64,000 nucleotides of DNA from Ascaphus truei (Eukaryota; Chordata; Amphibia; Anura; Ascaphidae). Under the pieces are notes generated by a model that did not search any database, had not been told where the DNA came from, and was given only the letters and a program-made list of their open reading frames with translations. Of the stretch, positions 25,996 to 46,854 are shown piece by piece; within the stretch, counting starts at the first letter, position 1, and each line of letters starts with the position of its first letter. The stretch is from the NCBI GenBank assembly GCA_036426205.1, contig WSYH01000213.1, forward strand, positions 99,501-163,500, in the 5' to 3' direction. Made by a program: the position numbers and the translations under genes.

Positions 25996-28900
25996 TCATT
26001 GCAGTATATTGGTACCGTCTATCCCCGGAATGTCTGTTTGTGCCAACCATGGCGACCAGACTTTTAGGAAATTTGTGCCGGAGTCGTTGACCAGACTTGT
26101 CAACTGTTCCATCCGGCAAACAAACCAAATTCTGTTTCTAATCTTGGGTAGAATCGGGAGCTCTGGTTTCTTCCACAGCGCTGCTATCTCACACCCGGTG
26201 GCCGTGGCAAAATGTGCAATCAGTTTATGAGTTGCGTTCGATAACCCCCGGACCCGTCTTCCCAGAAGGAACAGCCATGGATCAAGGGGGACGTCGAGCC
26301 CAATCAGTCGCTGCAGCCACTCTTTAATTTCCGCCCAAATCGGAGCCACCTTCGTGCAGGACCACAGCATGTGGCGCAGGTCCGCTTTTTCGCCACATTG
26401 CTTGGGGCAAAGCGGCGAATAGCCTTTGACGAATTTAGACAGTTTAGTTGGGTGTAGTACCAACGCATCAGGACTTTATATGTGTTCTCCTTTAACGTAG
26501 TACAGATAGAGCTTTTCGCCGCTGCCTGTAGGATCCTATCCCAGTCGTCGTCCTCTAAAGTTTCCCCGAAGTCCGCTTCCCATTGCCTCATGTAACTAAG
26601 TCTGGGATCGTCTGTCGTCCCGGGGCAGATCACTTCCTTGTACATTCTAGAGGTTAGTCCCCTCGTGTCCGTTTCTCTGGAACACATCTGCTCAAAATTT
26701 GCCGAATAGGGGCTTTCTTGTAGAAAGCCCTGATCTGTAGATATCTAAATAATTCAGCGTTCAGAATTTTTTTCCCTCTTTTATATGAGCAAAGGTTTTA
26801 ATTACCTCGCTGCCTTCCAGATCTTTTAGTCGGAGATACCCTGCCCACATCCAATTAGAAAAGTTAGCGCTATCCAGGCCTGGAGCGAAATCCGGGTTGC
26901 CCCATATGGGGGTCATCAGTGAGTTTTGTGTTGTAAGAGAACTTCTAAATTTGGTGGCCTCTCATACTTTCAGGGAATTCATCATGGCCTGCAGCGGTGT
27001 TCGCATCCTCGAACGGCTGTTCCTGGGCAGCCATATCAGGTTCTTCAAATCTACCGGAGTGCAACACTCCCTCTCCAGTGCCACCCATCGCCGAAGGGTC
27101 GGGTTGGTGTGCCACTGCAGGATCTGCGTTAGTTCAGCTGCTTCGTAGTAGGCGAGCAAGCACGGCACCCCCAGCCCTCCTCTTGAGGTCGGCCTCCTCA
27201 AGATATCTTTTCTAATTCTGGGGCCTTTTTTATTCCAGATGAATTTCGTTATTGCGGACTGTAAGGAGAGGATCTCATCTTTTGGCAGGGGGATCGGGAG
27301 GGTCTGGAAAAGATATAGCACCCGTGGAAGGAAATTCATTTTTACGCTTCGAATTCTGCCTATCCAGGAGATGCCACATTCCACCCATCGCCGCAGATCC
27401 TCCCTTAGAGTCTTAAACAACTTGGGATAATTCGCCCTGTATAGGGTTTTATAGTCTTTAGTGAGATTTACCCCTAGGTATTTGATCGTGGAGGGCTGCC
27501 ATTTAAAGTTAAAATTGAGTCCAATTAGCTTTTCTATTGGTTTAGGTAGATTTAGATTGAGGGCTTCCGATTTGGCCTGGTTAATTTTGAACCCCGAAAT
27601 TTGGTTGAATTTCCCCAGGATTGAAAACACATTGGGCAGAGAGGTAAGAGGCTGGGATAATGTCAGGATCACATCATCCGCGTACAGGGCCACTTTATGT
27701 GACTGCTCTTTTAATGTTATCCCGAGATATCCGGGTTACTCCTTATATGCGCCACCAAGGGTTCAATACAGAGGGCGAACAACAAGGGGGACAACGGGCA
27801 TCCCTGTCTTGTGCCACTGCGGATCTGGAAAAGTTCCGATGGGAACCCCTGATGTCGCACCCTTGCTGCTGGCCCCTCGTATAGTGCCATAATGGCTCCC
27901 AGTATGCATCCCTCAAAGCCGAATGCCCCCAGCGTCTCTCTCAGGTAGGGCCAGTCTATCCGGTCAAAGGCTTTTTCGGCGTCCAGACTCAGCACCAATG
28001 ACGGAATATTTTGCTTTTGGGCCAGATCGATTAAGTCAATTATTTGTCTGGTGTTGTCTGCCGCTTGCCTGCCACTTATGAACCCCACCTGATCTGGATG
28101 TACCAGCCCGGTAAGAACGATACCCACTCTATTGGCTATTAGTTTAGAGAAAAATGTTATGTCCGTATTAATTAGAGAGATGGGCCGGTAGCTCTTACAG
28201 TCTGCCGGGTCCTTTCCTGGTTTATAGATCAGCGAGATTGACGCCTGGAGCATCTGTGCTGGGAACGAGGCCCCTTGTAAGACCGAATTAAAGAGTTTTA
28301 ACAAATGTGGGGCTAGAAGTTTTAGATATTTTTTGGAGTAAAGGTGTTAGAGTAGCCATCTGGGCCGGGCGCCTTGGCAGGCTTGAGAGACTTTACAACT
28401 TCTGTTAACTCTTCTAAAGAGAAGTCTTCCTGTAGTGCCTCTCTCTCCGCTCCGCTCAATGTTGGTAGGTTTGCCTCTTTTAAAAATTCTCTGAGATTTT
28501 CCCTCGTTTTCTGATTATGGATGACCTTACCCCCATCATAGAGTGACTCATAGTAGTTCTTAAATTCCGCTACGACCCGCTTAGGATTCGAGGCAAGTTC
28601 CCCCCCCTGCGTGCGAATAGAGTGGATGTGGTAGTTTGGTTTTTTGTTTCTAAGTCTATTTGCTAGAAGGGTGTCTGGCTTGTTCGCCTTCTCAAAGAAT
28701 CGACGCTTAGTCCAACTCATCTCCTTTTCAGCCTGAGACGCCAGTCACAGATTTAACTGTTTTTTAGTATCTTGAATTTGTTCCAGGACCTCTTTTTTGG
28801 ATCTTTTGTGTATTGCGGTGAGGGACACCAATTTCCCTTTTAGCTCTTTTATCTGGCTCTCCTGTTCTCTTTTGCGTCTAGCGGCTAGCCACATAAGAGA

Positions 28901-29787
28901 TCCTCTGAGGGTAGCCTTATGGGCCTCCCACAACGTGGCAGGTGAAGATACACTCCCCTCGTTCTCTTTAAAATACTCACTGCTTTTGTCCGCGATCTCT
29001 GATTCTAATTTAGGAATTTTTAACAGCAACTCATTTAGCCTCCAACACGCTCCAGGTCTGTCCAGCAAATTTAACATGCACAGCAGCTCTATAGGTGCGT
29101 GGTCTGACCACAAAATATCGTGTATTCCCGAATGGGAGACCACTGGGACCAGTCTATTAGATACCAGGAAGTAATCAATCCGGCTGTACCGGTTGTGGGG
29201 GTGGGAGTAAAATGTATAGTCCTTGGTCTGTGGGTGCTGCTCCCTCCAGATATCCACTAATTGGCAGTCTCGGAGTCCTTGGGCAATGGTTAGTACGTCC
29301 CGTCTGGGGGGGGGGATAGGTGCTGTACATCGGTCTAGTGTGTGGTTCAGTGTCCTATTCAAGTCTCCAGCTACAATTAACTGGCCCTTCGCTTCCTGCT
29401 GCAGACGCCGGAAGAAGAGGGCAAAGAAATCTGTTGCCCGCTCGCACGGGGCATAAACTGAGACCAGTGTGAGGGCCTGACCCTGTATGGACCCCACTAA
29501 TATGATAAATCTGCCTTCAGCGTCTACCACCCTTTTTTCTTACTCAAACAGTAAGTTTTTGTGAATAACAATGGCCACCCCTCTTTTTTTTCTGGTGCTG
29601 ATGCTAGGTGTATCATATTAAAGTCTTTATCTAAATATTTTGGAAAGCTAGCTTTGGAAAAGTGGGTCTCTTGGAGGAAGAGAACGTCCGCTTTGTATCT
29701 TTTATAATCTCTAAAGGCCAACTTACGTTTTTTGGGGCTGCTGAATCCCTTAACGTTATGGGAGATGCATCTTATTTCTCTAATCAT
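25996..29787 (-). pseudogene. L1-type ORF2: endonuclease and reverse transcriptase, interrupted
   Basis: The likely start is the Met at 29,787 (MIREIRCISHNVKGF), the classic N-terminus of the apurinic-like endonuclease. Endonuclease motifs QETH, VYAPC, AGDLN, SRIDYFL and SDHAPI follow. RT motifs include KAPGPDGY, SYRPISLIN, SLDAEKAFDR, GTRQGCPLSP and YADD (27,673-27,684). The C-terminus has a CPKQC...H...C zinc knuckle (26,356-26,409). Breaks seen: a one-base shift in an A8 run near 29,600, TAA near 29,545, TGA near 28,743, frameshifts near 28,340, 27,725 and 26,450, and a stop near 26,962. Together they make a non-functional protein of about 1,260 codons. It would have nicked target DNA and primed reverse transcription. 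Confidence 0.9.
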
Positions 29788-31160
29788 TGGGATCGTCTTG
29801 GTATGGTTCTTTCTCAGTGTCCGCTGTGGCCGAGCCGTGCCCTTGCTGCGAGGCCTTGTCCATAGCTCTATCTTTTCCAGCGAAACCGTCTTCTGTGTTG
29901 GTCGCCATTGGAGCAGGTGGGGGGGGTGTGGGGTGGCCGGATGTGACACGAGAGGGAAGACACACAGGAAACACAAAGGAAAAAACAACATGTAAATACA
30001 AGTTTACTAACAACAACATGTTCTCAGCTCGAGGACCACCGTGTCCTGCAGCAGAGTCCAACGCCCTCTGGGAGTGGGGCCCCGTGGCCTCAAGGACCAC
30101 TTCCCACCGTCTCTCCCCAAAGGACTTTGACAGGATCTCGGGGGGCCCTCCCCTCCTGATCCCATCCGCAGCACATGCCGACCTTGGGATTTGAAGCTCC
30201 CTCCATCCGCCATGCCCGCGCTCTCTCTTTATCCACCCCCTTTAACTTTAATTGTCTAACCTTTATAACAAAACTGTAACTGTAACTGTAGACGGCTACT
30301 ATAGGCTGCTTTGGCTCTAGCCCGAGCTTCCAAGTCCAGGTCCCTATATTTGCTCCCTGGCATACTCCTCCCAGGACTCTCCCCTACCTCTGCTCTAGTT
30401 GCTTGAACTCATCTCCAATGTCTCCCCCTTTTTTCCCCTCTCCCCCCTCCTCTCTCCATCTTCCAGTCACCTGCGTTCTCTTTTGTACACCCCTCGTGTC
30501 TCTCCTACACCTCCCTCTCTCTCCGCTGGGGCTTGCCTATGTGGGAGTGCCCCTCGTCCCGATCCCCTCGGGCCTTCCCCTGTTTGCCCGCACTACTCTC
30601 CCCTGTGGCAGCCTGATCCCCGCTTAATGATAATCCATGTTTTGAGACGTGCCCGGTGACCTTTCATAGTCCTACGTGAGGGCTGCCCCCTTCCGCCTTC
30701 TTGTTCCGGCGCGCCTCCCTCTATCTCTGGGTACTTCCGCCTCCTCCAAGATGGCGCTGACTTCTCCGGCGCCTCCTGATGATAACATCCGGTTTCCGGC
30801 GGCCGACATTTTGAGACTCCTGCTGCCTCGTGGAGGACATGTAGCTCTCTTCTCCCGCTCACTCACCGCTTCCTGGTTCCGCGCCTCACGGTGGAATCTG
30901 TGAAGCGCCATTTCACCCGCCATCTTCCTCCATCCTCGTGGGCCGATTCGAAAGGTTAGTTTCCTTCCTTTTCTTTGTAGGGATTGCCGCTGACTTTGAC
31001 AGGTGACCGGGTAGGGTCTCTGGGTCCCCACAGGGGGCTCTTAGGAGCTCGTATGCCGGAGTATAGTGGCGGGGAAGCCCTGCCGGGTGGCCACACTTGG
31101 CCATCAACTTAGGCCCTCAACCAGGCAACCGTAACTTTATAACACTGAACCTTGCATGAG
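29788..31160 (-). other. Long ORF1-ORF2 spacer of the LINE, GC-rich and promoter-like
   Basis: About 1.37 kb separate the ORF1 stop from the ORF2 start; in mammalian L1 this gap is only tens of bases. The stretch 30,690-31,050 is CpG-rich and contains AAGATGGCG words on both strands (plus about 30,750; minus about 30,920), the core of YY1 sites. Reading frames here are numerous, but none has a recognisable domain. It could be an internal promoter, an inserted sequence, or a family-specific layout. Confidence 0.6.
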
Positions 31161-32141
31161 TCATTTAGTGACCTTTTTATTGTCCTCCTCACTTATTCCT
31201 CTTGGCTTTGGCGTGCCTGCTCCTCTGCTCCACTCTGGTTCTAGGGCAGCCTCCTCACCTACCGCTTCTGCTGGGGAGCCCCCCAGGCCCAGTTTAGCGA
31301 GGAAATCTGGCCCTTCCACCGGGTCTTTCAAGGTGAGGGATCTCCTGTTCCGCGTTACTTGCAACCCGAATGGGAAGGTCCAACGGTACCTCACGTTGTT
31401 CTCGCGGAGCACTTTGGTAACTGGAAGCAGTGATCTGCGTCTCATTAGGGTAAGCGGGGATAAGTCCTGGAATATCTGCATTTTGTTGGATGCAAATTCT
31501 ACAAACGGCAGGACCCTCGTATGGCGTAACACTGCCTCTCTTGTTGTATAATAGTGTAGCCGGAGGATAATATCCCGCGGCTGTTCATTTTGGACTGGCC
31601 GGGAGCGCAGGGCCCTATGGCAACGGTCCATCGCCAGGGCCTCTTTATTGCTGTCTGGCAACAGGGATTCTAGCCAGCGTGCAGTGTAAGCCTCACAATC
31701 CCCCACTTCTTCAGGGACCCCCCGGATTCTGATATTATTTCGCCTATCGCGGTTCTCCGCATCCTCCTGCCGCTCTTTTAGCTCATCTATTTGTTTCTGT
31801 AGGTCAGCGGTCTTTTTCTCCGTCTTTTTACCTGCCCTGATGGTGAGATCCACTTTGGCCTCCAGATCATCCGTTCGGGTCCCCTGCTTTGCGACCTCCC
31901 GCTTAACTTCCTTAATATCCACTTGCAGGAGCATTTTCAGGTCATTATAGAGCCTTGCGAAGTCACATCGCCGGACTGGGAGTTGGGACTGACTATTTGG
32001 TCCTTCGTCATCTCCTTCCAGTTCTGTGTCCATGTCTGGCGCCATTTCTCCTGTTTGTTCGCTTGCAGCTGCGGCGCCGAAGTAATCCCGCACATCAGCT
32101 AGCTTTTGTCTTTTCTGGCCGACCGGCTTCTTTGGGGCCAT
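31161..32141 (-). CDS. L1-type ORF1 protein, 326 aa
   Basis: An uninterrupted frame from MAPKKPVGQKRQKL to a stop at 31,161. ORF1 proteins bind LINE RNA as trimers and act as nucleic-acid chaperones in the retrotransposition particle. Layout: basic N-terminus (1-15); acidic/polar linker; predicted coiled coil (about 75-130, heptad-rich with KKTEKKTADLQKQIDELKER); an RRM-like domain opening RRNNIRIRGVPEEV (about 132-215); and a C-terminal domain with DIILRLHYYTTRE and QIFQDLSPLTLMRRR. Length and order match L1 ORF1p (L1 transposase-22 family). The intact frame contrasts with the decayed ORF2 downstream. Start is the first Met after a 140-base leader. Confidence 0.85.
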   Translation of the reverse strand: MAPKKPVGQKRQKLADVRDYFGAAAASEQTGEMAPDMDTELEGDDEGPNSQSQLPVRRCDFARLYNDLKMLLQVDIKEVKREVAKQGTRTDDLEAKVDLTIRAGKKTEKKTADLQKQIDELKERQEDAENRDRRNNIRIRGVPEEVGDCEAYTARWLESLLPDSNKEALAMDRCHRALRSRPVQNEQPRDIILRLHYYTTREAVLRHTRVLPFVEFASNKMQIFQDLSPLTLMRRRSLLPVTKVLRENNVRYRWTFPFGLQVTRNRRSLTLKDPVEGPDFLAKLGLGGSPAEAVGEEAALEPEWSRGAGTPKPRGISEEDNKKVTK

Positions 32142-32281
32142 CCTGGAGTATTTACTCAGCTGTGGGTTTAAGCTTATAAACCAGTTTTTATTTTTGGGGT
32201 GTTAGTTCTTTATATACTCTGAGCGCGAGACGGAGCTATTCAATCAAGCTTCCATACCCCGATCCTTCGCACATGCGCATC
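32142..32281 (-). promoter_or_regulatory. LINE 5' UTR
   Basis: Starts ATGCGCATGTGCGAAGG right after the target duplication. It includes TATATAAA (about 32,210, minus) and CGCGCTCAGAG. At 140 bases it is short for an L1 5' UTR. Confidence 0.6.
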
Positions 32282-36849: not shown

Positions 36850-36851
36850 TA

Positions 36852-36885
36852 CAGTGGCGGCCGCCTTTATCCTAATGCGGCTGTA
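36852..36885 (+). repeat. Left terminal inverted repeat of the 10-kb element
   Basis: CAGTGGCGGCCGCCTTTATC then CTAATGCGG. The core GCGGCC and TTTAT(T/C)CTA are shared with the right end and with both MITEs. Confidence 0.75.
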
Positions 36886-37396
36886 TCCGCGGTGCTCTGA
36901 TAATCTCGGGCAGATGCGTTTTTTTTATTTTGGTACGGAGAGAATTGCGTTATTTTGGCGCTCGTGATATTAGCATTTTATTATCGCTGTCTGCAATATT
37001 GCAAAACCGTCTAAAAACTCAGGGGGGCGTTCGCGAGCTGTTGTCTTGGAAGTCTAATACCTTAGCAGTTCAACCTACGTCAGTACATAGTCTGCGTGTG
37101 CGCGCACAGTAACTGTAAATTTGCATATTTACTGTATACATGCATTTGCAGTGCTGTATGTCTCATTTGAAAATTGTTGAAATGCATATGCGTCTACAGT
37201 ACTGTAACAGTGTCACATTTCGGCATATACTGTACAGCGCTCTCCCCTCGCTCACCCCCGCACACACACAGGATAATTCACTGCACTGCAGGGTATTTCA
37301 ACTTCTTATCTTATCTACAGTGCAGTACATCTCTCCCACACCATTCTGTTGAATGTGTGTATTTCTGGTTTCAATCACATTCCTGCTTGACAGCAG

Positions 37397-39560
37397 ATGA
37401 TTACTGCGCATGCGCCTGTAACTTCACCCACAACTGCTTGCTTGAGTGAGTGACCAAAAAAAAAAAAAAAAATCTCCTCATTTTTTATTTTTATTTTCTC
37501 CACAAGCCTGCAAAAACCATCTTGATATTACGATATTCAATCTGTGCTGTACTGTAGCTTTTGACTGCGACCCTGTGCGTTTGACTGCACATGGTTGATT
37601 TGTGTGCTTTTTATGTACTGTATTTGGGAGTGTAGGGATCAAATTATTATGATGAGCTGCCTTTTGAAATTATGCCATTTCTTTGAACTGCAGTACAACT
37701 AATCCTTCCTGCAGCAATACCCTGTGCCCCCCTCCCCCACGCACACACACAAGGCTCGCTGAAGGATTTGAAACTCTTATCGACAGACACCTCTACAGAG
37801 TCATTCATTTTCTATAGTTTTTCATTGTGTTTTGAATCCGTCCGTAGCCGAGCATCACCTCTCTCTCTGCACCTGCGTGTAATCCTCTTTGGGATAGGAG
37901 CTACAGTACATAGCTGATTACTGCGCATGCGTCTGTAAATTCACCACTGCTTGCTTGCAAAGTTCAAGAGTTAGTGACCAAAAAAAAAAAAAAAATTCTC
38001 TTAATTTTTTATTTTTATTTTCTCCACAAGTCTGCCTAGACAACCTTGATATTACGATATTCCATCTGTGCTGTAGCTTTTGACTGCGACCCTGTGCGTT
38101 TGACTGCACATGGTTGATTTGTGTGCTTTTTATGTACTGTATTTGGGAGTATAGGGATCATATTATTATGATGAACTGCTATTTGAAATTAAAGTATGTC
38201 ATTATCTTTGAACTTCATGCAGCTGTAGCCTGTATCCCCCCTCCCCCACGCACACACACAAGCCTCGCTCAAAGATTTGAAACTCTTATCGATAGACACC
38301 TGCACAGAGTCATTCATTTTCTGAAGCTCGCCATTGTGTTCTTAATCCGTCCATAGCCGAGCGTCACCTCTCTGCGCCTGCATGTAATCCTCTTTGAGAT
38401 GGGAGCTAGCTGATTACTGTGCATGACTCACCCAACCCCCCCGTCCCCAATCCTTTGAGGCTTTGTTTACGGTAACGCATTGGAAAAATCCCTTCTTGAA
38501 TTTGATATGTAAATCTGATTTGCACAGCATTGTGAGAATTGAGAGTTAAAAAAAACATTAACTGATTCAGGTTGTTTTGTCATTCATTCTTTTTCTTTGG
38601 TGTACTGTAGGTGTGGGAGGGGGGGTTGTTGTCAATGATTATGATTATCAAGAATGTAAATATTTATTTTATCAGGAACCAAAAAAAATATATAAAACGC
38701 TTGCCATTGTGTTTTTATTCCGTCCCTAGCAGAGCATCACCTCTCTATGCGCCTGCGTGTAATCCTCTTTGGGATGGGAGCTAGTTTATTACTGTGCATG
38801 CGCCTGTAAATTCACCACGGCTTGCTTGAGTGAGTGTCCAAAAAAAAAAAAAATTATTCCTCCTCATTTTTTATGTTTATTTTCTCCACAAGCCTGCAAA
38901 AACCATCTTGATATTACGATATTCAATCTGTGCTGTAGCTTTTGACTGCGACCCTGTGCGTTTGACTGCACATGGTTGATTTGTGTGCTTTTTATGTACT
39001 GTATTTCGGAGTGTAGGGATCAAATTATTATGATAACCTGCCTTTTGAAATTATGTCATTTCTTTGAACTGCTGCACAGCTAATCCTTCCTGCAGCTGTA
39101 CCCTGTAGCCCCCTCCCCCATGCACACACACAAGGCTCGTTCAAGGATTTGAAACTCTTATCGACAGACAACTCTACAGAGTCATTCATTTTCTGAAGCT
39201 TGCCATTGTGTTCTTAATCCGTCCATAGCCGAGCGTCACCTCACTGCGCCTGCGTGTAATCCTCTTTGAGATGGGAGCTAGCTGATTACTGCGCATGACT
39301 CACCCAACCCCCCTCCCCAACCCTTTGAGGCTTTGTTTACGGTAATGCATTGGAAAAATCCCTTCTCGAATTTGGTATGTAAATCTGATTTGCACAGCAT
39401 TGTGAGAATTGAGAGTTAAAAAAACCATTAACTGATTCATGTTGTTTTGTCATTCATTCTTTTTCTTTGGTGTACTGTAGGTGTGTGGGGGGGGGGGGGG
39501 GGTTGTTGTCAGTGATTATGATTATCAAGAATGTAAATAAATATTTATTTTATTTTATCA
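37397..39560 (+). repeat. Higher-order tandem array inside the 10-kb element
   Basis: A-type units start at about 37,397, 37,913 and 38,785 (about 500 bp each). They share TTACTGCGCATGCGCCTGTA, a poly(A) run, CTTGATATTACGATATTC and GACCCTGTGCGTTTGACTGC. B-type units start at about 38,408 and 39,283 and share GACTCACCCAACCCCCC, TTGAGGCTTTGTTTACGG and GGTGTACTGTAGGTGTG. The order is A-A-B-A-B. They lie just inside the left end, where transposase-binding repeats often sit. No protein is encoded. Confidence 0.85.
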
Positions 39561-39924
39561 GGAACAAAAAAAACAAATATAAAAATAATCATTAATAATA
39601 CATAATGCAGTCTTTAAGTTCTTCTGTCAGGCCGGTGGATAATGCACATTGATAATAATATGAATTAATAATATATAATATATAATATATAATAATATGT
39701 ATATACTGTATAGTAATATAATTTTTCCGTCTTTATCTTCTTCCTCATTCTGTGTACAGAACAGTAGTTCATTGAGAGAGGAGAGGTTTTCTGTACATCA
39801 TGACTGCATTTTACATACTGTACACTTAACTGTACAAACAGTTCACAGACTTTACACGATAACCCCCTCTCTCCCAGGCCATCCTTTTTTTCCGAAAAGA
39901 CAAGAAAACAAAAAATTAGTGCAG

Positions 39925-40215
39925 TTATGTGCATACTGTATTATGGCATTGTGTGCTGTGTAGTACTGTCAAACTACTCTATACTTGAACGGCTGTATAC
40001 TGTGACTACTGCTAAATACTTTGTAACCAGATGGCTGGTGCTGCTCTCTCTGGAAAGGAAAAAAATTGAGCAGTTACTGTAGGTGCATACTGTATTATGG
40101 CATTGTGTACTGTATAGCTTCTCCATATTGGACTACAGTATGCAGTTAGTACTGTCAAACTAGTCTATACTGGAACTACTGTATACTCTGACTACTAGGA
40201 AAGAAAAAAATCTGT
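39925..40215 (+). repeat. Two-copy tandem repeat, about 150 bp
   Basis: GTGCATACTGTATTATGGCA with TAGTACTGTCAAACTA and a GGAAAG(A/G)AAAAAAAT end occurs twice. Confidence 0.75.
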
Positions 40216-40793
40216 GCCATACTTACCTGTATCATTCTGTACTTACAATACTACAGTACAGTACTATACCATACTACCTTCCTGATGCTTGCCCATTACA
40301 CGCGATCACAATGGGCAACACAGTCGCAATATGGTCAATATATTTATTGCATCGTTCCATGGTGAGTACATCGTTCCAAAAACTCAGTATGCCTTGCGCC
40401 AACTCATCCTTTTTGGAGGTTTCACGACTTTTCGGATATGGTCCTTCAGCTGATGCCAGACCATTTCGATCAGATTGAAGTCTGGTGATCTGTCATTGGA
40501 AAAAAAGGACAATTAGTTAAACAGATACAGTACACAGTAAAAACAGTGGGGAAAAAATGAGACACGGTTACCGCACTTACTCCGCTGGCGTCTTTACCCA
40601 GTTGATTCCGGGCTCAAGGATATGCGCTGTTGACGCGGTGTGCTTCGGGTCGTTGTCCTGGTAGAAACGGTGACCATTCGGGAACTTGCGTGTGATGTAT
40701 TCCACAATCTCAGGCACAATTTTGTCTTGGAATAAAGCTTTCTTCATGATTCCTATAACAAGAAAAGAAAAGTGCTCAAAAAACTGCACACTA

Positions 40794-41151
40794 CACTGGC
40801 GGCACACTTTATTCTTACCTGGCTGGAGCCGCAAGCCGGGAGGTGTCCTGGCTTGCTTGTTTATTTCCCTCGGCGTGCCGCGCGTCATCGATGCGCGGTC
40901 ACGCTTCATCTGGAGTGTGCGCGCATGGCGCGCGTGCCCAGGGCTCCTTGAGGGAGCCCTGGTGTCCCGCGATGTGGGGATTGCGGTGGGGGGCTCCGGG
41001 GGACCCTGCGGACCAGAGAGGGGAGGGGGAAGCCCTGATCGGAGGACCGATCCTCCGAGGCTCCGGCGCGCACCCGGGACCCCTCGGCGCGCGCCCGGTT
41101 ACTGTCGCGGCCGAGACCGGGCAAAGGTTAGAATAAACTCGGCCGCGACAG
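40794..41151. mobile_element. 358-bp GC-rich MITE of the same family, inside transposase intron 3
   Basis: Left end CACTGGCGGCACACTTTATT then CTTACC; right end (complement) CTGTCGCGGCCGAGTTTATT then CTAACC. TA flanks at 40,792-40,793 and 41,152-41,153. Its base composition is sharply GC-rich against the AT-rich host element. It carries no protein and lies wholly within the intron, so splicing would remove it. Confidence 0.8.
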
Positions 41152-41789
41152 TAGTACAGTAAAGGGCATTAGGCTAAATTATATTTTATATATTTTACCT
41201 TCAATGATGACAATGCATCCTGGTCCACGCCTAGAGATGGCACCCCACACATGCATTTTTCCTGGGTGTTTTGGACGCGGCTTCATAGATGTGCGACCTT
41301 TTTTGTGGAATGCAAAGGTGGCAAATCTCTCCAGCGATGCAGTAGACTCGTCAGTGAAGATGCAATCCTGGAAAGTTTCTCCACTGTCGATCCATGCCTG
41401 GGCCTGGACCACTCTTTTGATTTTGTTAACGTCCCTTATCATGGGGTACGGTCTGTAATGACAAGGAATAAATAATTTTAGAGGTACAGTACAGTTTCTT
41501 AAACAACACTTTTACCTCCTGTACTGTCCAGTTCTAACCTCACAAGTCCATATTTCCATCCAATTCTGCGTCTCATCTTCTTTATGCTGGTCTCCGATAA
41601 AGTGAGATTGTGATTTTGCTGCAGAGTGTATTTGACCCTTAATGCACTCTCTTCATCATTCTCTTCACTTATTTTGTCGACCAGAAGAGTTGTCTCCCTA
41701 CAATGTACAGAAAAACAACAATCCGGTAAGTTACAGTGCAGTAGGCCACAAGCACAGCACATCATTTGGTGTAAAAATAGTATACAATG

Positions 41790-42125
41790 AGATATTGTTC
41801 TATTAATATGCAGCAATATAAACAAAATATATACTGTTGTTATATAAATATAACGAAACAACTATAAAATTAGATACAGTAGATCTACAGTACACAATAT
41901 ATTGTTCTATTAATATGCAGCAATATAAAAAATATACATATACTGTTATATAAATATACCGAAATAACTATAAAATTAGATACAGTAGATCTACAGTACA
42001 TAATATATTGTTCTATTAATATACACCAATATAAAAAATATACATACTGTTATATAAATATTCCGAAATAACTATAAAATTAGATACAGTAGATATACAC
42101 AATATATTGTTCTATTAATATGCAG
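41790..42125 (-). repeat. Four-copy tandem repeat in transposase intron 1
   Basis: TATTGTTCTATTAATATGCA starts at 41,793, 41,900, 42,006 and 42,105 (periods 107, 106, 99). Units also share CTATAAAATTAGATACAGTA. Confidence 0.9.
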
Positions 42126-42425
42126 CAATGATAGATATACTGTATACTTGAAAACGAGAGGTAACTCTCAATGTATTCCTTCCTGGTAAAATATTTTATA
42201 AATAAATAAATAAACATATTTATATAAATATACTTACGCTTTAGTTACCGTTGGTGTCCTCGTGCGTTGTCTGGTTTTTCCGTGTGCATGATAGTGCACG
42301 GTGGATGATGGCACAACGAGGCCAGAAGCAGCTAACCAGCATTGGATATCTTCAATTTGGTGTCCGCTCGTGTACATCTCCTTAATTCGCATGCTGAGAT
42401 CCTTTGAAATCTTTTTAACAGGCAT

Positions 42426-42678
42426 TGCTGCGAGTAGAATGAAATACAAACACAAGAATATATATTCGATGTTTAGTCGATGTGTATTCAATGTGCAGTG
42501 AATCCACAAAATGGATGGTGTATTTATACGTTAATGACCCACATTAGAGTACGCCCACTTTCAACACCTGTACCTCGTCGCCATGCATAAAAGGTTACAC
42601 ACTTTGCATAGCCCACCACTCAATGATCTTTATCTGAACTTGCCCTTGTCCAGATACTGCATTGTGACATCTGCTTCC
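42426..42678. promoter_or_regulatory. Shared divergent promoter of transposase and BEN-like gene
   Basis: TATAAATA on minus (42,521-42,528) lies about 96 bases before the transposase ATG. CATAAAAGG on plus (42,586-42,594) lies about 85 bases before the chosen BEN-gene ATG. With only 253 bases between the two start codons, the genes probably share control elements. Confidence 0.55.
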
Positions 42679-44119
42679 ATGTATCAACCCCGATTCTACA
42701 GACGCAGGAAGCCACTCGCCTCTGCCGTGCCTATCACACAGAAAAAGCGAAAGGCGGCAGCCGTTTCCAAGCCAAGGCCAAAGCGACAGGCTAAGGCCAA
42801 TAAAGAAAACATTCCGCTGACCCCAAAGGCTAAGGGTTTTAATAGACGTAAGCCTTATTATGTCCAGAAGAAATACGGTGATGAACACTCAATGCAAAAC
42901 AAATGGCAGCCAACCCATCAAACCCGCAGTCCACTTCCTCCAATACGCTTCGATGATTCTGCCGCCGCTCTCCCGGATATCTTCAGCCCGTCTTCTCCAC
43001 TACTCGTCCTCGACGCTGCCGCCGCCCCTGAAATCCACGGGTCACTTTTTCCTTTGCGCTTAGACGACTCTGCTGCTTCTCACCTGGAAATCCAGAGGTC
43101 AATTTCTACATCCCTCTTCGACGACGCTGCCGCTTCTCCTCTCCCGGATATATCCACAGGTCACCTCCTCCACCCTTCTTTGGCGATGCTGCCGCTTCTC
43201 TCCATGGAACCCCCATCTCATCCTCCGTAGCACCCATCCACCCAGATGTCCACAGCACGCCATGCACAAGAAGCAGCTCGTTAGACCGGATGCTGAATGG
43301 GATAAGTGTGGATATCCCCGGGAACTCTATTGTGCTGGCAAAGATAGATCTGCTTCTGGAGACCATGCTAAATATAGATCAACTGATGCAGAAGATGGAT
43401 CAATGGATGGAGAAGATGGATCGACGGATGGAGAAGATAGAGACTGACATAGCGGGGATACATAATTTGCTCGGTGTTCATGTCCCTGTATCCCCGACGC
43501 CAGAGCAGGAGGGTGGCATGGATGTGATGAATGGGACCTTCGACCACCTTCCATCACCAAGCGCACCCCCTCCACCAGAAGATTTTGTGTACATGTATGC
43601 CATTGAGGAGGAGTATAACATGACAACCCCGTCAAGACCACGCCAGGAGACAACACAGTGACCAAGACAGGAGGAAAGCTTCCTCCAAGACAACCTACCC
43701 TCGCCCGCCGCCACAAGCACACCCGCTCACAGAAGAACAGCCGCTTCCAGAACCCAACCTACATTCGCTTGCATCGATACGGTGCCCGACATCATCCTGC
43801 GCGATCTGCCACCGGCACTCAGGGAGAAGTATAGGGGATGAGTGCTGGTGTACCCCACAAGTATGCCTTGTTTCTTTTTAAGCACCATGTTCCCTACTCG
43901 TTGTACTGCGACTGGGCCTTCAAAGTGAATTACGACGGAAATCGCGAAAAAAAGGCGCTTCCTGACAATTTAAGAAAGACCATTCTGGAGGAATTGCGGC
44001 GCTTTTTTTCAATTACAGATCCTTTAATGAAAGGCGTTTGAGACTGCATTAATGGCATTTTGCGCCATGCAAGGCATCGGCCATGGAAGGACAATATAGT
44101 GGGGTACGCATTTGCGTGA
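42679..44119 (+). pseudogene. BEN-like, coiled-coil nuclear protein of the 10-kb element (decayed)
   Basis: I start at MYQPRFYRRRKP because the earlier ATG at 42,583 overlaps the TATA-like box. The N-terminus is very basic (KKRKAAAVSKPRPKRQAKAN), a likely nuclear signal. Residues about 90-180 hold five degenerate repeats built on (F/L)(D/G)D(S/A)AA with LPDI or LEI. A heptad-rich coiled coil follows (LLLETMLNIDQLMQKMDQWM, about 43,335-43,450). The C-terminus (about 43,780-44,090) has LRDLPPALREKY, then HKYALFLFKHHVP, LRKTILEELRRFF and DCINGILRHARH, a BEN-domain-like pattern. Breaks: frameshifts near 43,175 and 43,837, and TGA at 43,659 and 44,039, each readable as CGA before CpG decay. BEN domains bind DNA or chromatin factors. 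Confidence 0.6.
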
Positions 44120-44157
44120 GTGTTCAACTGTTGTAACTTTTTTGTAAATGTTTTGTT

Positions 44158-44239
44158 CCAGTCCCCGAGGGCCACAAACAGGCCCGATTTTCAAAGGTTA
44201 TCCTGAAAACCGGGCCTGTTTGCGGTCCTCGAGGACTGG
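44158..44239. mobile_element. 82-bp foldback MITE
   Basis: CCAGTCCCCGAGGGCCACAA...CGGTCCTCGAGGACTGG: arms nearly complementary over about 35 bases, including ACAGGCCCG and CGGGCCTGT. Resembles vertebrate hAT-type foldbacks with CAGTCCTCGAGGGCC ends. It lies just after the BEN-like reading frame. Confidence 0.6.
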
Positions 44240-44299
44240 AGTTGTGCAGGCCTGACTGACTGCTCTGCACACCATCCTACTGTAAATGTTTTGACTTGC

Positions 44300-44640
44300 T
44301 GTACTTTAATAAAGGAGATGTTGCGTTTTGTATATTGTATGAATAAAGAATTGTTTTTAATAACAGGTAAGACCATGCTGTTATGCTGTACTGTACATGT
44401 TTTGGCCTGCTGTACTTAAATAAAGGTAGATGTTGTGTTTTTGTATATTTTATGAATAACATGTGACTGTAAACGATACTGTACTGACTGACTGTAAATG
44501 TTTTTACTTTCTGTACATAAATGTTTTCACTAGCAGTAAACCATACACCTGTTGAAGTTTTGAATTGCTGTGCACTTAAAATGTTTTTACATTGTACAGG
44601 ATTTGTAAATAAATGTTTTTGTACTTACTCCACCAATAAA
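44300..44640 (+). terminator. Cluster of poly(A) signals after the BEN-like gene
   Basis: AATAAA at about 44,309, 44,342, 44,420 and more to 44,635, within short duplicated units (AATAAAGGAGATGTTGCG and TAAATAAAGGTAGATGTTG). Confidence 0.45.
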
Positions 44641-45189
44641 AGAAAATGTTGATTTTTTAAAATTGTTCCATTGTCTCCTTTGATACTGTAACAAAATACA
44701 GTGTTTCTAGAATGTACTGTCCAGGCATACTGTACTGTATACTGTAGGCATGCTCAGTACTGCACATCACAAAAGTATTAAAAAAAATACAAAACACATA
44801 CTGTACTGTATGTACTGGTATAGAAGACACGTACTGTATGTACTGGAATACATGTAGAATAAATGCATACTTTTTATTTTTTCGGGTTTATTATACAGTA
44901 TATATAAAAAAGTATTGTATAGGGTCTGAAAACATCAGCATACTGTTTCAGGTATTCTATCCTAATCTATAACAACAGCCACTAAACTGTAGACTCCGGT
45001 ATGTGGTTTTTTAAATCCGATTCAGCATTGAGCAGGCATTGTTACACAAAGTGATATTATCCATCGAAATCCCTCCATTTGCCGTTTTCTTTTGTGAGGA
45101 AAAACAAAAATAAAAGTTTTAGTGTAATGGTCAGTCCCCTAAAGAAGTTCCCAGTCAGTCCCACCAATAATTTTCTCCGGGGGCGTCTC

Positions 45190-45275
45190 CTGTTCACATG
45201 CGCATGCGCCTACCGTCGATGTGATGACACGCATATGCGTTTCAAGAAGGTTCCAATGCGCATGCGCCTAGCGTT
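45190..45275. promoter_or_regulatory. Paired NRF1-like palindromes
   Basis: TGCGCATGCGCC at 45,199-45,210 and again at 45,257-45,268. The same word is in the left array (37,405) and near the right end (about 46,632). It matches the NRF1 consensus and may be a binding site for host or element proteins. Confidence 0.45.
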
Positions 45276-45418
45276 CCACCAATTGTTCGGTATCTGCAGT
45301 ACTGTAGAAGCCGCTCAGCCAATGATATTGCTTACAGGAGAATCGCTTGACTTTTGAATCGCACCGATATTGTTTTTTTCAAAATAAAAAAAAACAGAAT
45401 AAAATACGACAACATTAC

Positions 45419-46033
45419 TCACCATAGAATTTCCCATTCAGCTGATGCCGGCGCCGGGCCACTGCCAGTCCAGTATTCTTGATCATACACGTTGACAGTT
45501 GACAGCAGGACTACTACACCTGTAGTCAGCTGATAAGGCTGGAAATCGCTTAGGTACATGCAAGCTTGCTCGAAACTGTACGCGAAATCCATCTCAGGCT
45601 GCAGGTATCCGTTCGTGGACAGACAGCAAGGGTTGTCACTGACGGTAGGACCGTTATTGGAAGCTGGTGCTGGTGCTGGCGCATTGCTTGCCAGCAACTG
45701 ACGTTTCTTACATGGTTTTAACACGACCTTTCGCCTTTTGCCGTCTGCATGATCATAGATACAGGAAAAACCCGGTGATATACACCAATACCCTCCAATA
45801 AATTCGGGATCAATAAGATAAAAACATGGATCGCTACATAACTTTTTCCTTATTGCACGCTTCCACACATGAGGAGCTGGCGAAAATTTGTAAAAGTCAT
45901 AGTTTTCGATAAAATACTGATAAATTTGAACAACTGTTGCCATATTATCATCTGTTGCATTAATCGCGGCCCATATTAAAAACGCGTACGTTCTGTCGGG
46001 TTTTTGGAACACGGGCTGCATTTGTACACTCAT
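45419..46033 (-). CDS. Forkhead (winged-helix) domain protein, 204 aa, inside the 10-kb element
   Basis: An intact frame starting MSVQMQPVFQ. Residues 11-88 align with a forkhead domain along its length: KPDRTYAFLIWAA (helix 1), IYQYFIENYDFYK (helix 2), WKRAIRKKL (recognition helix 3), SDPCFYLID and GGYWCISPGF (wing 1). Forkhead proteins bind DNA as monomers through helix 3. Here the usual Asn and His of WxNSIRHxL are Arg and Lys, so specificity should differ. A basic stretch (GKRRKVVLKPCKKRQ, 98-112) could be a nuclear signal; then Ala/Pro-rich and acidic regions. The stop codon overlaps GTGAGTAA, a good splice donor, so a short extra exon further left is possible. No close FOX subfamily is evident. 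It is the only unbroken gene of the element. Confidence 0.8.
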   Translation of the reverse strand: MSVQMQPVFQKPDRTYAFLIWAAINATDDNMATVVQIYQYFIENYDFYKFSPAPHVWKRAIRKKLCSDPCFYLIDPEFIGGYWCISPGFSCIYDHADGKRRKVVLKPCKKRQLLASNAPAPAPASNNGPTVSDNPCCLSTNGYLQPEMDFAYSFEQACMYLSDFQPYQLTTGVVVLLSTVNVYDQEYWTGSGPAPASAEWEILW

Positions 46034-46198
46034 GGCGACGAGACTGACTCTCTGGAGAATAATAGAAACTGGTGTTTGTCTTTCTTTAATATGAAAAGCC
46101 TAAATTGATACATTATTGTAACCTCTTCCTTCAGTTTCAAGGCCAAGTTACAATAGCCCACTGTGGTATCTTTTTTAAACGAAACACCTGCAAGTCGA

Positions 46199-46854
46199 CA
46201 CATTACTGAAGCGCATGTGCATTACAATTCATGAATATCTGCCATCTGGCGGACATGCGAAGAATTGCAACCTAATAAATCCGAACCATTCTCAATAAAC
46301 GCATCAACCGCGCGTCAACCGCACATGACCCGCGCATAACCTACGGCTGGGAACGCAAAATGAATGCGGCATGCTCCAGGTGAAGTGCGTCGCATTCCAG
46401 GAAAAAGCCAGGGAAAAAACGGCGATGTGTTAGACTCAAATGTGCCGCAGCAGTATCTTAGTTGTGTTCAATTCAACCCAGAGATATTTGGTGTATTATT
46501 ATAACCCCGTACTAGCTACCGTGACAGGCTTATCGTAAAACTATAGTAAAACATACATTTTGGCATCCTTAGGATCTTCTAACCACACTTAAATGGCTTC
46601 TGATATGTTACTGGTATGTAACATTACTGAAGCGCATGCGCATTACAATTCATGAATATCTGCCATCTGGCGGACACGTGAAGAATTGCAACCTATTAAA
46701 TCCGAACCATTCTCAATAAACGTATGAACCGCGGCTGAGAATGCAACATGAATGCAACATGAATGCGGCATGCACCCGGTGAAGTGCGTAGCATTCGGAA
46801 AAAAATCCAGGAAAAATGCGGTGATGTTGTAGAATAAAAGGGGCCGCGACAGTA
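46199..46854 (-). repeat. Duplicated right end of the 10-kb element
   Basis: Copies at 46,199-46,455 and 46,621-46,854 both start ACATTACTGAAGCGCATG and share CATGAATATCTGCCATCTGG, TGAATGCGGCATGC and GTGAAGTGCGT. The inner copy ends GTGCCGCAGCAG then TA; the outer ends GGGCCGCGACAG then TA. The inner one looks like a decayed former terminus. Confidence 0.8.

Follow-up and report, generated by a model that had tools for sequence, protein, structure and literature searches.

Within a 64,000-nucleotide stretch of DNA from the frog Ascaphus truei (positions 99,501 to 163,500 of contig WSYH01000213.1, assembly GCA_036426205.1; hereafter called the window), positions 36852 to 46852 hold one member of a Tc1/mariner-type transposon family that has many copies, an element that carries three genes and moves with them as a unit. 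Transposons of the Tc1/mariner superfamily are the classic example of elements with one gene, and because their transposase requires few other components, they are used as vehicles for gene transfer. The element described here has a gene for a predicted spliced transposase with a DDE domain, a gene for a protein with a forkhead domain, and a third gene, which we call gene 2. The reading that we favor, and hold to be probable, is that this is a TA-flanked cut-and-paste family in which the forkhead protein is the element's own DNA-binding helper.

A large element with matching ends and three genes

The element begins with C36852 and ends with G46852, and the dinucleotide TA lies directly beyond each end (Table 1). 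The left and right tips are identical at 18 of 23 positions, as counted by eye, and the end blocks match at least 40 places each, in agreement with the TA-flanked matching ends described in an original prediction made from the letters of the window. All three genes lie between the two tips in the order transposase (minus strand), gene 2 (plus strand), and forkhead gene (minus strand, near the right end). The noncoding part on the left is filled by direct-repeat units of about 190 to 300 bp, with 74 to 95% identity and a spacing of about 500 to 1,400 bp.

Table 1. Features of the window copy and its flanks, in window coordinates
Feature	Position	Strand	Remark
Left target site TA	36850..36851	.	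Read from sequence, outside left end
Left terminal repeat tip, CAGTGGCGGC...	36852..36874	+	Sequence; genome-wide matches
Tandem-like long direct repeats, left noncoding part	37461..39495	+	Units of about 190 to 300 bp
Transposase exon 5	~40277..40489	-	SPDFNLIE motif; frame change in window copy
Transposase exon 4	40581..40752	-	QDNDPKHT motif
Nested miniature inverted-repeat transposable element (MITE), intron 3 of transposase	40794..41151	.	Similar ends, TA outside; absent from other copies
Transposase exon 3	41199..41452	-	FTDES motif
Transposase exon 2	41539..41697	-	Reading frame
Transposase exon 1	42238..42425	-	Start codon at 42425
Gene 2, family unknown	42583..44119	+	Frame recurs in other copies; broken here
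Forkhead gene	45419..46033	-	Open frame, 204 codons plus stop
Segment of about 400 bp, absent from L014, L016, and L020	~46334..~46733	.	Holds diverged second right end, which stops at 46456
Outer right terminal repeat tip, reverse strand CTGTCGCGGC...	46830..46852	-	Form usual in other copies
Right target site TA	46853..46854	.	Read from sequence, outside right end

The three genes recur between the same ends

The genome searched was the window's own (2.82 Gb in 19,235 contigs). The left 260 bp yielded 2,627 first-look candidates, the best 40 of which match at 92 to 100%, and the right 232 bp yielded 2,945, with the best 40 at 89 to 100%; the window is included in both sets. Searches with the forkhead protein and with transposase exon 3 gave 17,604 and 9,261 candidates, respectively, from which the best 150 matches were taken in each case. 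These candidate numbers lead us to infer that the family has thousands of copies.

Twenty other copies were fetched by the left end alone, 10 kb each, and the right side was extended for four of them. TA stands directly before the left end in all 20, which, together with the DDE_3 domain and catalytic motifs described below, bears out the predicted Tc1/mariner membership. Five of the 20 (L014, L016, L020, L026, and L029) retain the two ends together with parts of each of the three genes, although exon 4 of the transposase was not found in L014. Matches to all three genes, with the left end resolved, were also seen in L011 (a short match for the forkhead gene), L018 (a short match for gene 2), and L025. 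Besides the three-gene copies there are deletion forms from which at least one gene is missing. A forkhead gene with no transposase match was found in L012, L017, L019, and L027; L022 has the transposase and gene 2, and L023 the transposase and a reversed, diverged forkhead gene. Inside the 10 kb fetched, the transposase alone was found in L015, L021, L024, and L030, and none of the three genes was seen in L013 and L028.

The two-ended three-gene copies measure 8,455 to 12,664 bp, nested inserts counted, which exceeds the usual one-gene build of 1 to 3 kb. TA follows the right tip in eight of nine two-ended copies, L012 being the exception. When 11 other loci were chosen by the forkhead protein, a complete right end followed by TA was present in nine and a partial end in two; when six were chosen by right-end DNA, every one contained between 414 and 612 of the 612 forkhead bases, and TA was present in five. 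Genome searches with the ends and proteins, which had been proposed along with the original prediction, therefore returned other copies with the same gene set, ends, and TA flanks. The pattern named there as contrary, in which the transposase and the ends never occur with the other two genes, was not observed, as such copies carry both.

Among the matches listed for ends and genes, we counted at least 28 pairs of gene 2 with the forkhead gene, 12 or more of the transposase with gene 2, at least 11 of the forkhead gene with the right end, and at least nine of gene 2 with the right end. The left end was paired at least eight times with the right end, at least seven times each with gene 2 and with the transposase, and at least four times with the forkhead gene, and the window supplies one pair in each class. 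No pair in another order or orientation was found among these matches, and the chance expectation is below 0.04 for each of the six pairings computed. These counts should not be read as rates of co-occurrence, since only copies that rank at the top of both lists enter them.

The element inserts as a unit

Copy L020 is two-ended, measures 8,455 bp, matches all three genes except over part of exon 2, and is inserted in another repeat. With its flanks joined, the best 40 of 2,896 candidates were all continuous across the junction, and one empty relative of the site, read at the level of single bases, shows just one TA. For the deletion form L027, the best 40 of 3,616 candidates were likewise all continuous, and the three that were read have a single TA. 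The search for empty sites that accompanied the original prediction was thus successful for both copies. L020 and L027 are both lodged inside high-copy repeats, as 2,896 and 3,616 first-look candidates attest.

A chance pile-up of separate nested elements at one place could also bring three genes together, and nested elements do occur in the window copy and in other copies. However, the order and orientation of the genes recur genome-wide, with no other order among the matches listed, and L020, which has both ends and all three genes, sits in a repeat as a single insertion. Chance nesting is refuted by the recurring order and by the insertion of L020 as a unit, and we give it essentially no credence. 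The three genes, gene 2 included, are co-mobile because they stand in a fixed order between the same ends and because L020 interrupts a repeat at a single TA. The prediction that they move together is thereby upheld by the five two-ended copies among the 20 and by the empty relatives of the L020 site.

The transposase gene

The transposase is predicted to be a five-exon spliced Tc1-like DDE protein. All four introns of the window copy have GT-AG borders. In other alignable copies, a donor GT is present in 7 of 9, 13 of 13, 14 of 14, and 13 of 13 cases for the four introns, and an acceptor AG in 10 of 11, 12 of 13, 13 of 13, and 12 of 13, respectively. The first three exon joins stand at identical places in two predicted Ascaphus proteins (P0002 and P0003), as judged by eye. 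The protein matches the DDE_3 domain of Pfam (2.7e-16) and the Sleeping Beauty transposase (6.7e-14), and it has the Tc1/IS630-type catalytic motifs FTDES, DNDPKHT, and SPDFNLIE, so the spliced DDE transposase of the original prediction stands.

The second Asp and the Glu of the catalytic triad have a spacing of 32 in the window transposase, whereas the DD34E/Tc1 family is defined by 34 residues between them. Among the 17 relatives that cover this region, the spacing is 32 in 12 and 34 in five (these spacings, like that of the window protein, were counted by eye). For an N-terminal paired-type helix-turn-helix, the signals are a match to the Sleeping Beauty PAI at no better than E = 0.37 and HTH_Tnp_Tc3_2 in relatives P0003 and P0004, which scores under the curated cut-off. 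The best two relatives are from Ascaphus (88 and 82%), and others come from coelacanth (51%), gar (48%), and zebrafish (39%).

The forkhead gene and its altered recognition helix

The product of the open forkhead frame has a forkhead domain at residues 10 to 88 (PF00250; Pfam, 1.3e-13, over cut-off) and matches FOXL2 at 2.3e-8, which confirms the forkhead gene of the original prediction. Its recognition helix reads KRAIRKKLC versus QNSIRHNLS in FOXL2, so that the NSIRHNLS-type helix of the FOX family is replaced by RAIRKKLC. Across 30 aligned copies, some of which were ranked by protein similarity, each helix residue is kept in 27 to 30, with one exception where K is present in 19 and R in nine. 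The sole database relative found for this protein is from Ascaphus truei (70%), and NCBIfam gave no match. A gap of 153 to 178 bp to the 232-bp end block in 10 other forkhead/right-end pairs places the start of the gene about 400 bp from the right tip.

Several diverged forkhead subfamilies are present in the genome (L018, L023, L047, and L048), with 57 to 70% protein identity to that of the window. One diverged subfamily is close to the Ascaphus protein P0001, with the best 150 of the matches listed at 82 to 93%.

Gene 2

Two frame changes and two in-frame stop codons disrupt gene 2 in the window copy. The sole database relative found for its protein is likewise from Ascaphus (78%), and for the end of the gene, 14 of the best 150 matches among 9,550 candidates are without a stop in the match and fall within open reading frames that span 403 to 552 codons. 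A coiled coil is probable by eye.

The original prediction called this gene BEN-like, and by eye the last part of the protein bears a loose resemblance in its residue pattern to the BEN consensus. However, no BEN domain was found in Pfam, or in PDB by sequence or profile, and hhalign against three PDB BEN sequences gave a probability of 0.2% in what is a low-power comparison with a thin profile (effective number of sequences, Neff, 1.15). We therefore regard a BEN-domain identity as improbable. NCBIfam gave no match for the end of gene 2, a single-sequence fold was unusable (predicted local distance difference test score, pLDDT, 47), and so was a second structure prediction (pLDDT 31). Of the two extra genes, only the forkhead gene has a product that is predicted to bind DNA. 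The claim of two accessory DNA-binding proteins accordingly holds in part: it stands as a prediction for the forkhead protein and finds no support for gene 2, and the accessory role itself is something that we infer.

A likely helper role for the forkhead protein

Based on knowledge of the family, the transposase would cut the TA-flanked ends, and the DNA would re-insert at TA. The forkhead protein would bind subterminal sequences or promoters within the element itself and could aid expression or the assembly of the transposition complex, and the gene 2 protein, with its probable coiled coil, might be a partner protein. The forkhead protein would likely help the element to move or to be switched on, because its altered recognition helix is conserved, its gene appears to be constrained, and it has a fixed place beside the right end.

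To gauge constraint, the ratio of nonsynonymous to synonymous differences (pN/pS) was counted on copies found by end DNA, in frame versus two off-frame readings. The transposase gives 0.49 in frame versus 0.97 and 1.01 off frame (n = 15, p = 0.0003), and the forkhead gene gives 0.53 versus 0.76 and 1.18 (n = 17, p = 0.005). For the forkhead domain alone the value is 0.48 (n = 11, p = 0.02), and when the family consensus is compared with the diverged copies L018 and L023, the domain value is 0.34 (p = 0.0009). Judging from these counts, the transposase seems to have stayed functional during the spread of the family, and the same seems true, with less certainty, of the forkhead gene. An earlier forkhead value of 0.45 was set aside because it came partly from loci ranked by protein similarity, which favors silent changes.

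Several observations weigh against a helper role. The Fisher tests take related copies as independent, which makes the p-values optimistic. The forkhead gene gives 0.62 in a smaller set (n = 11, p = 0.20), the domain alone gives 0.61 with n = 16 (p = 0.28), and the tail of the protein is unconstrained between subfamilies (1.14, consensus versus L018 and L023). Gene 2 is without a constraint signal (0.82 versus 0.80 and 0.90 off frame; n = 7), as is its end (0.79 versus 0.61 and 1.30; n = 9), and two genes, the transposase in exon 5 and gene 2, are broken in the window copy. Finally, canonical forkhead sites are not enriched at either end of the element, so the protein may read another site.

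The unconstrained tail and the lack of detectable constraint in gene 2, together with deletion forms without one or more genes that are also copied or survive, would suit an account in which a progenitor of the family picked up a FOX-like gene plus one further sequence, both of which then spread by hitchhiking as passive cargo with no role in transposition. Against this stand the constraint seen in the in-frame ratios of the forkhead gene (0.53) and, between subfamilies, of its domain (0.34), the conserved altered helix, and the fixed position next to the right end, and we consider passive carriage unlikely.

Somewhat easier to entertain, though still doubtful, is the view that the forkhead protein is a transcription factor that activates the element or host genes in the germline, outside the transposition complex. 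Forkhead domains are the DNA-binding domains of transcription factors, and TGCGCATGCGC-like palindromes, which we take to be an NRF1-type motif, recur in the element as a promoter-like feature. Such palindromes were noted at window positions 37405, 37922, 38793, 45199, 45257, 46211, and 46631. There are 17 strand matches to them in the window versus 0.51 expected, 13 of the 17 inside the element, and they were found again in other copies; they are candidate sites for the forkhead protein or for host NRF1. This view fits less well with the absence of canonical site enrichment at the ends, and the whole element shows only a mild enrichment of a loose forkhead motif (28 versus 18.7, reached by eight of 300 shuffles). 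A helper that is the element's own remains the reading that we prefer.

A nested insertion and a second right end in the window copy

The MITE in intron 3 of the transposase gene is 358 bp long, GC-rich, and TA-flanked, with ends similar to those of the large element. At 13 other loci (14 alignments) the site is empty and has a single TA, and the MITE may be mobilized by a related transposase. MITE-related pieces, 74 to 80% identical, are present at other positions in family members L014, L018, and L026.

Two right ends lie in series at 46334 to 46854, namely a diverged one that runs to 46456, followed by TA, about 160 bp, and an end of the common type that runs to 46852. The segment of about 400 bp that holds the diverged end is not in any of the three copies aligned there (L014, L016, and L020). 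We considered position 46456 as the family's common right end and ruled it out, the outer end sequence being the common form in other copies. The right end of the window copy may be at 46852, or it may be at 46456 with a neighboring end fragment beyond it; the extra end may stem from duplication, gene conversion, or a neighboring fragment.

Elsewhere in the window, L1-type retrotransposon-like open frames were seen by eye on the minus strand at 25996 to 32201, with ORF1 at 31161 to 32201 and pieces of ORF2 below it. Rfam at gathering thresholds and a transfer RNA scan with the bacterial code gave no match in the window.

Comparison with known systems

The element shares with Sleeping Beauty (DD34E/Tc1) and Intruder a TA target, short inverted ends, and a DDE_3 transposase similar to that of Sleeping Beauty. 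According to the accessible part of its description, Intruder (DD38E) elements are 1.5 to 1.7 kb long and have one uninterrupted transposase gene (PMC7731502). Unlike such single-gene Tc1-like vertebrate transposons, the present family has two-ended copies of 8.5 to 12.7 kb (nested inserts included), five transposase exons, a spacing of 32, and two further genes. Transposases from gar (P0004), coelacanth (P0005), and zebrafish (P0015), compared by transposase protein alone, belong to the same subgroup, being 39 to 51% identical with a spacing of 32. The forkhead domain is the feature held in common with FOXL2 and FOXA2, from which the element's protein differs by its altered recognition helix, its high copy number, and its site inside a transposon. 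In the portion of the literature that our search could reach, with most subscription papers and Repbase lying outside, no transposon is named as encoding a forkhead protein.

Two co-mobile extra genes, one of them encoding a forkhead protein with an altered helix, make it testable whether Tc1/mariner elements can evolve dedicated helper proteins. A transposon that carries a developmental-type transcription-factor domain at high copy number is also a possible source of new host regulators. In the broadest form of our proposal, which we judge to be evenly poised between right and wrong, a vertebrate Tc1/mariner lineage would have captured a FOX gene, rebuilt its recognition helix, and combined its product with a second accessory protein into a dedicated transposition system of three proteins, which then reached thousands of copies. 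If so, it would be the first of the Tc1/mariner systems in animals to have several genes, and its forkhead factor the first to be encoded by a transposon.

The closest likeness in gene number is to the TBE and Tec elements of ciliates, which the parts of the reports available to us describe as Tc1/mariner elements with three genes (PMC7325037; PMC4724952). A three-gene build is therefore no bar to Tc1/mariner membership. As far as those parts go, the extra genes of TBE and Tec encode a zinc-finger/kinase protein, a small unknown protein, or a site-specific recombinase, and these elements have DD34E spacing and ciliate hosts, whereas the present family has a forkhead gene and a spacing of 32.

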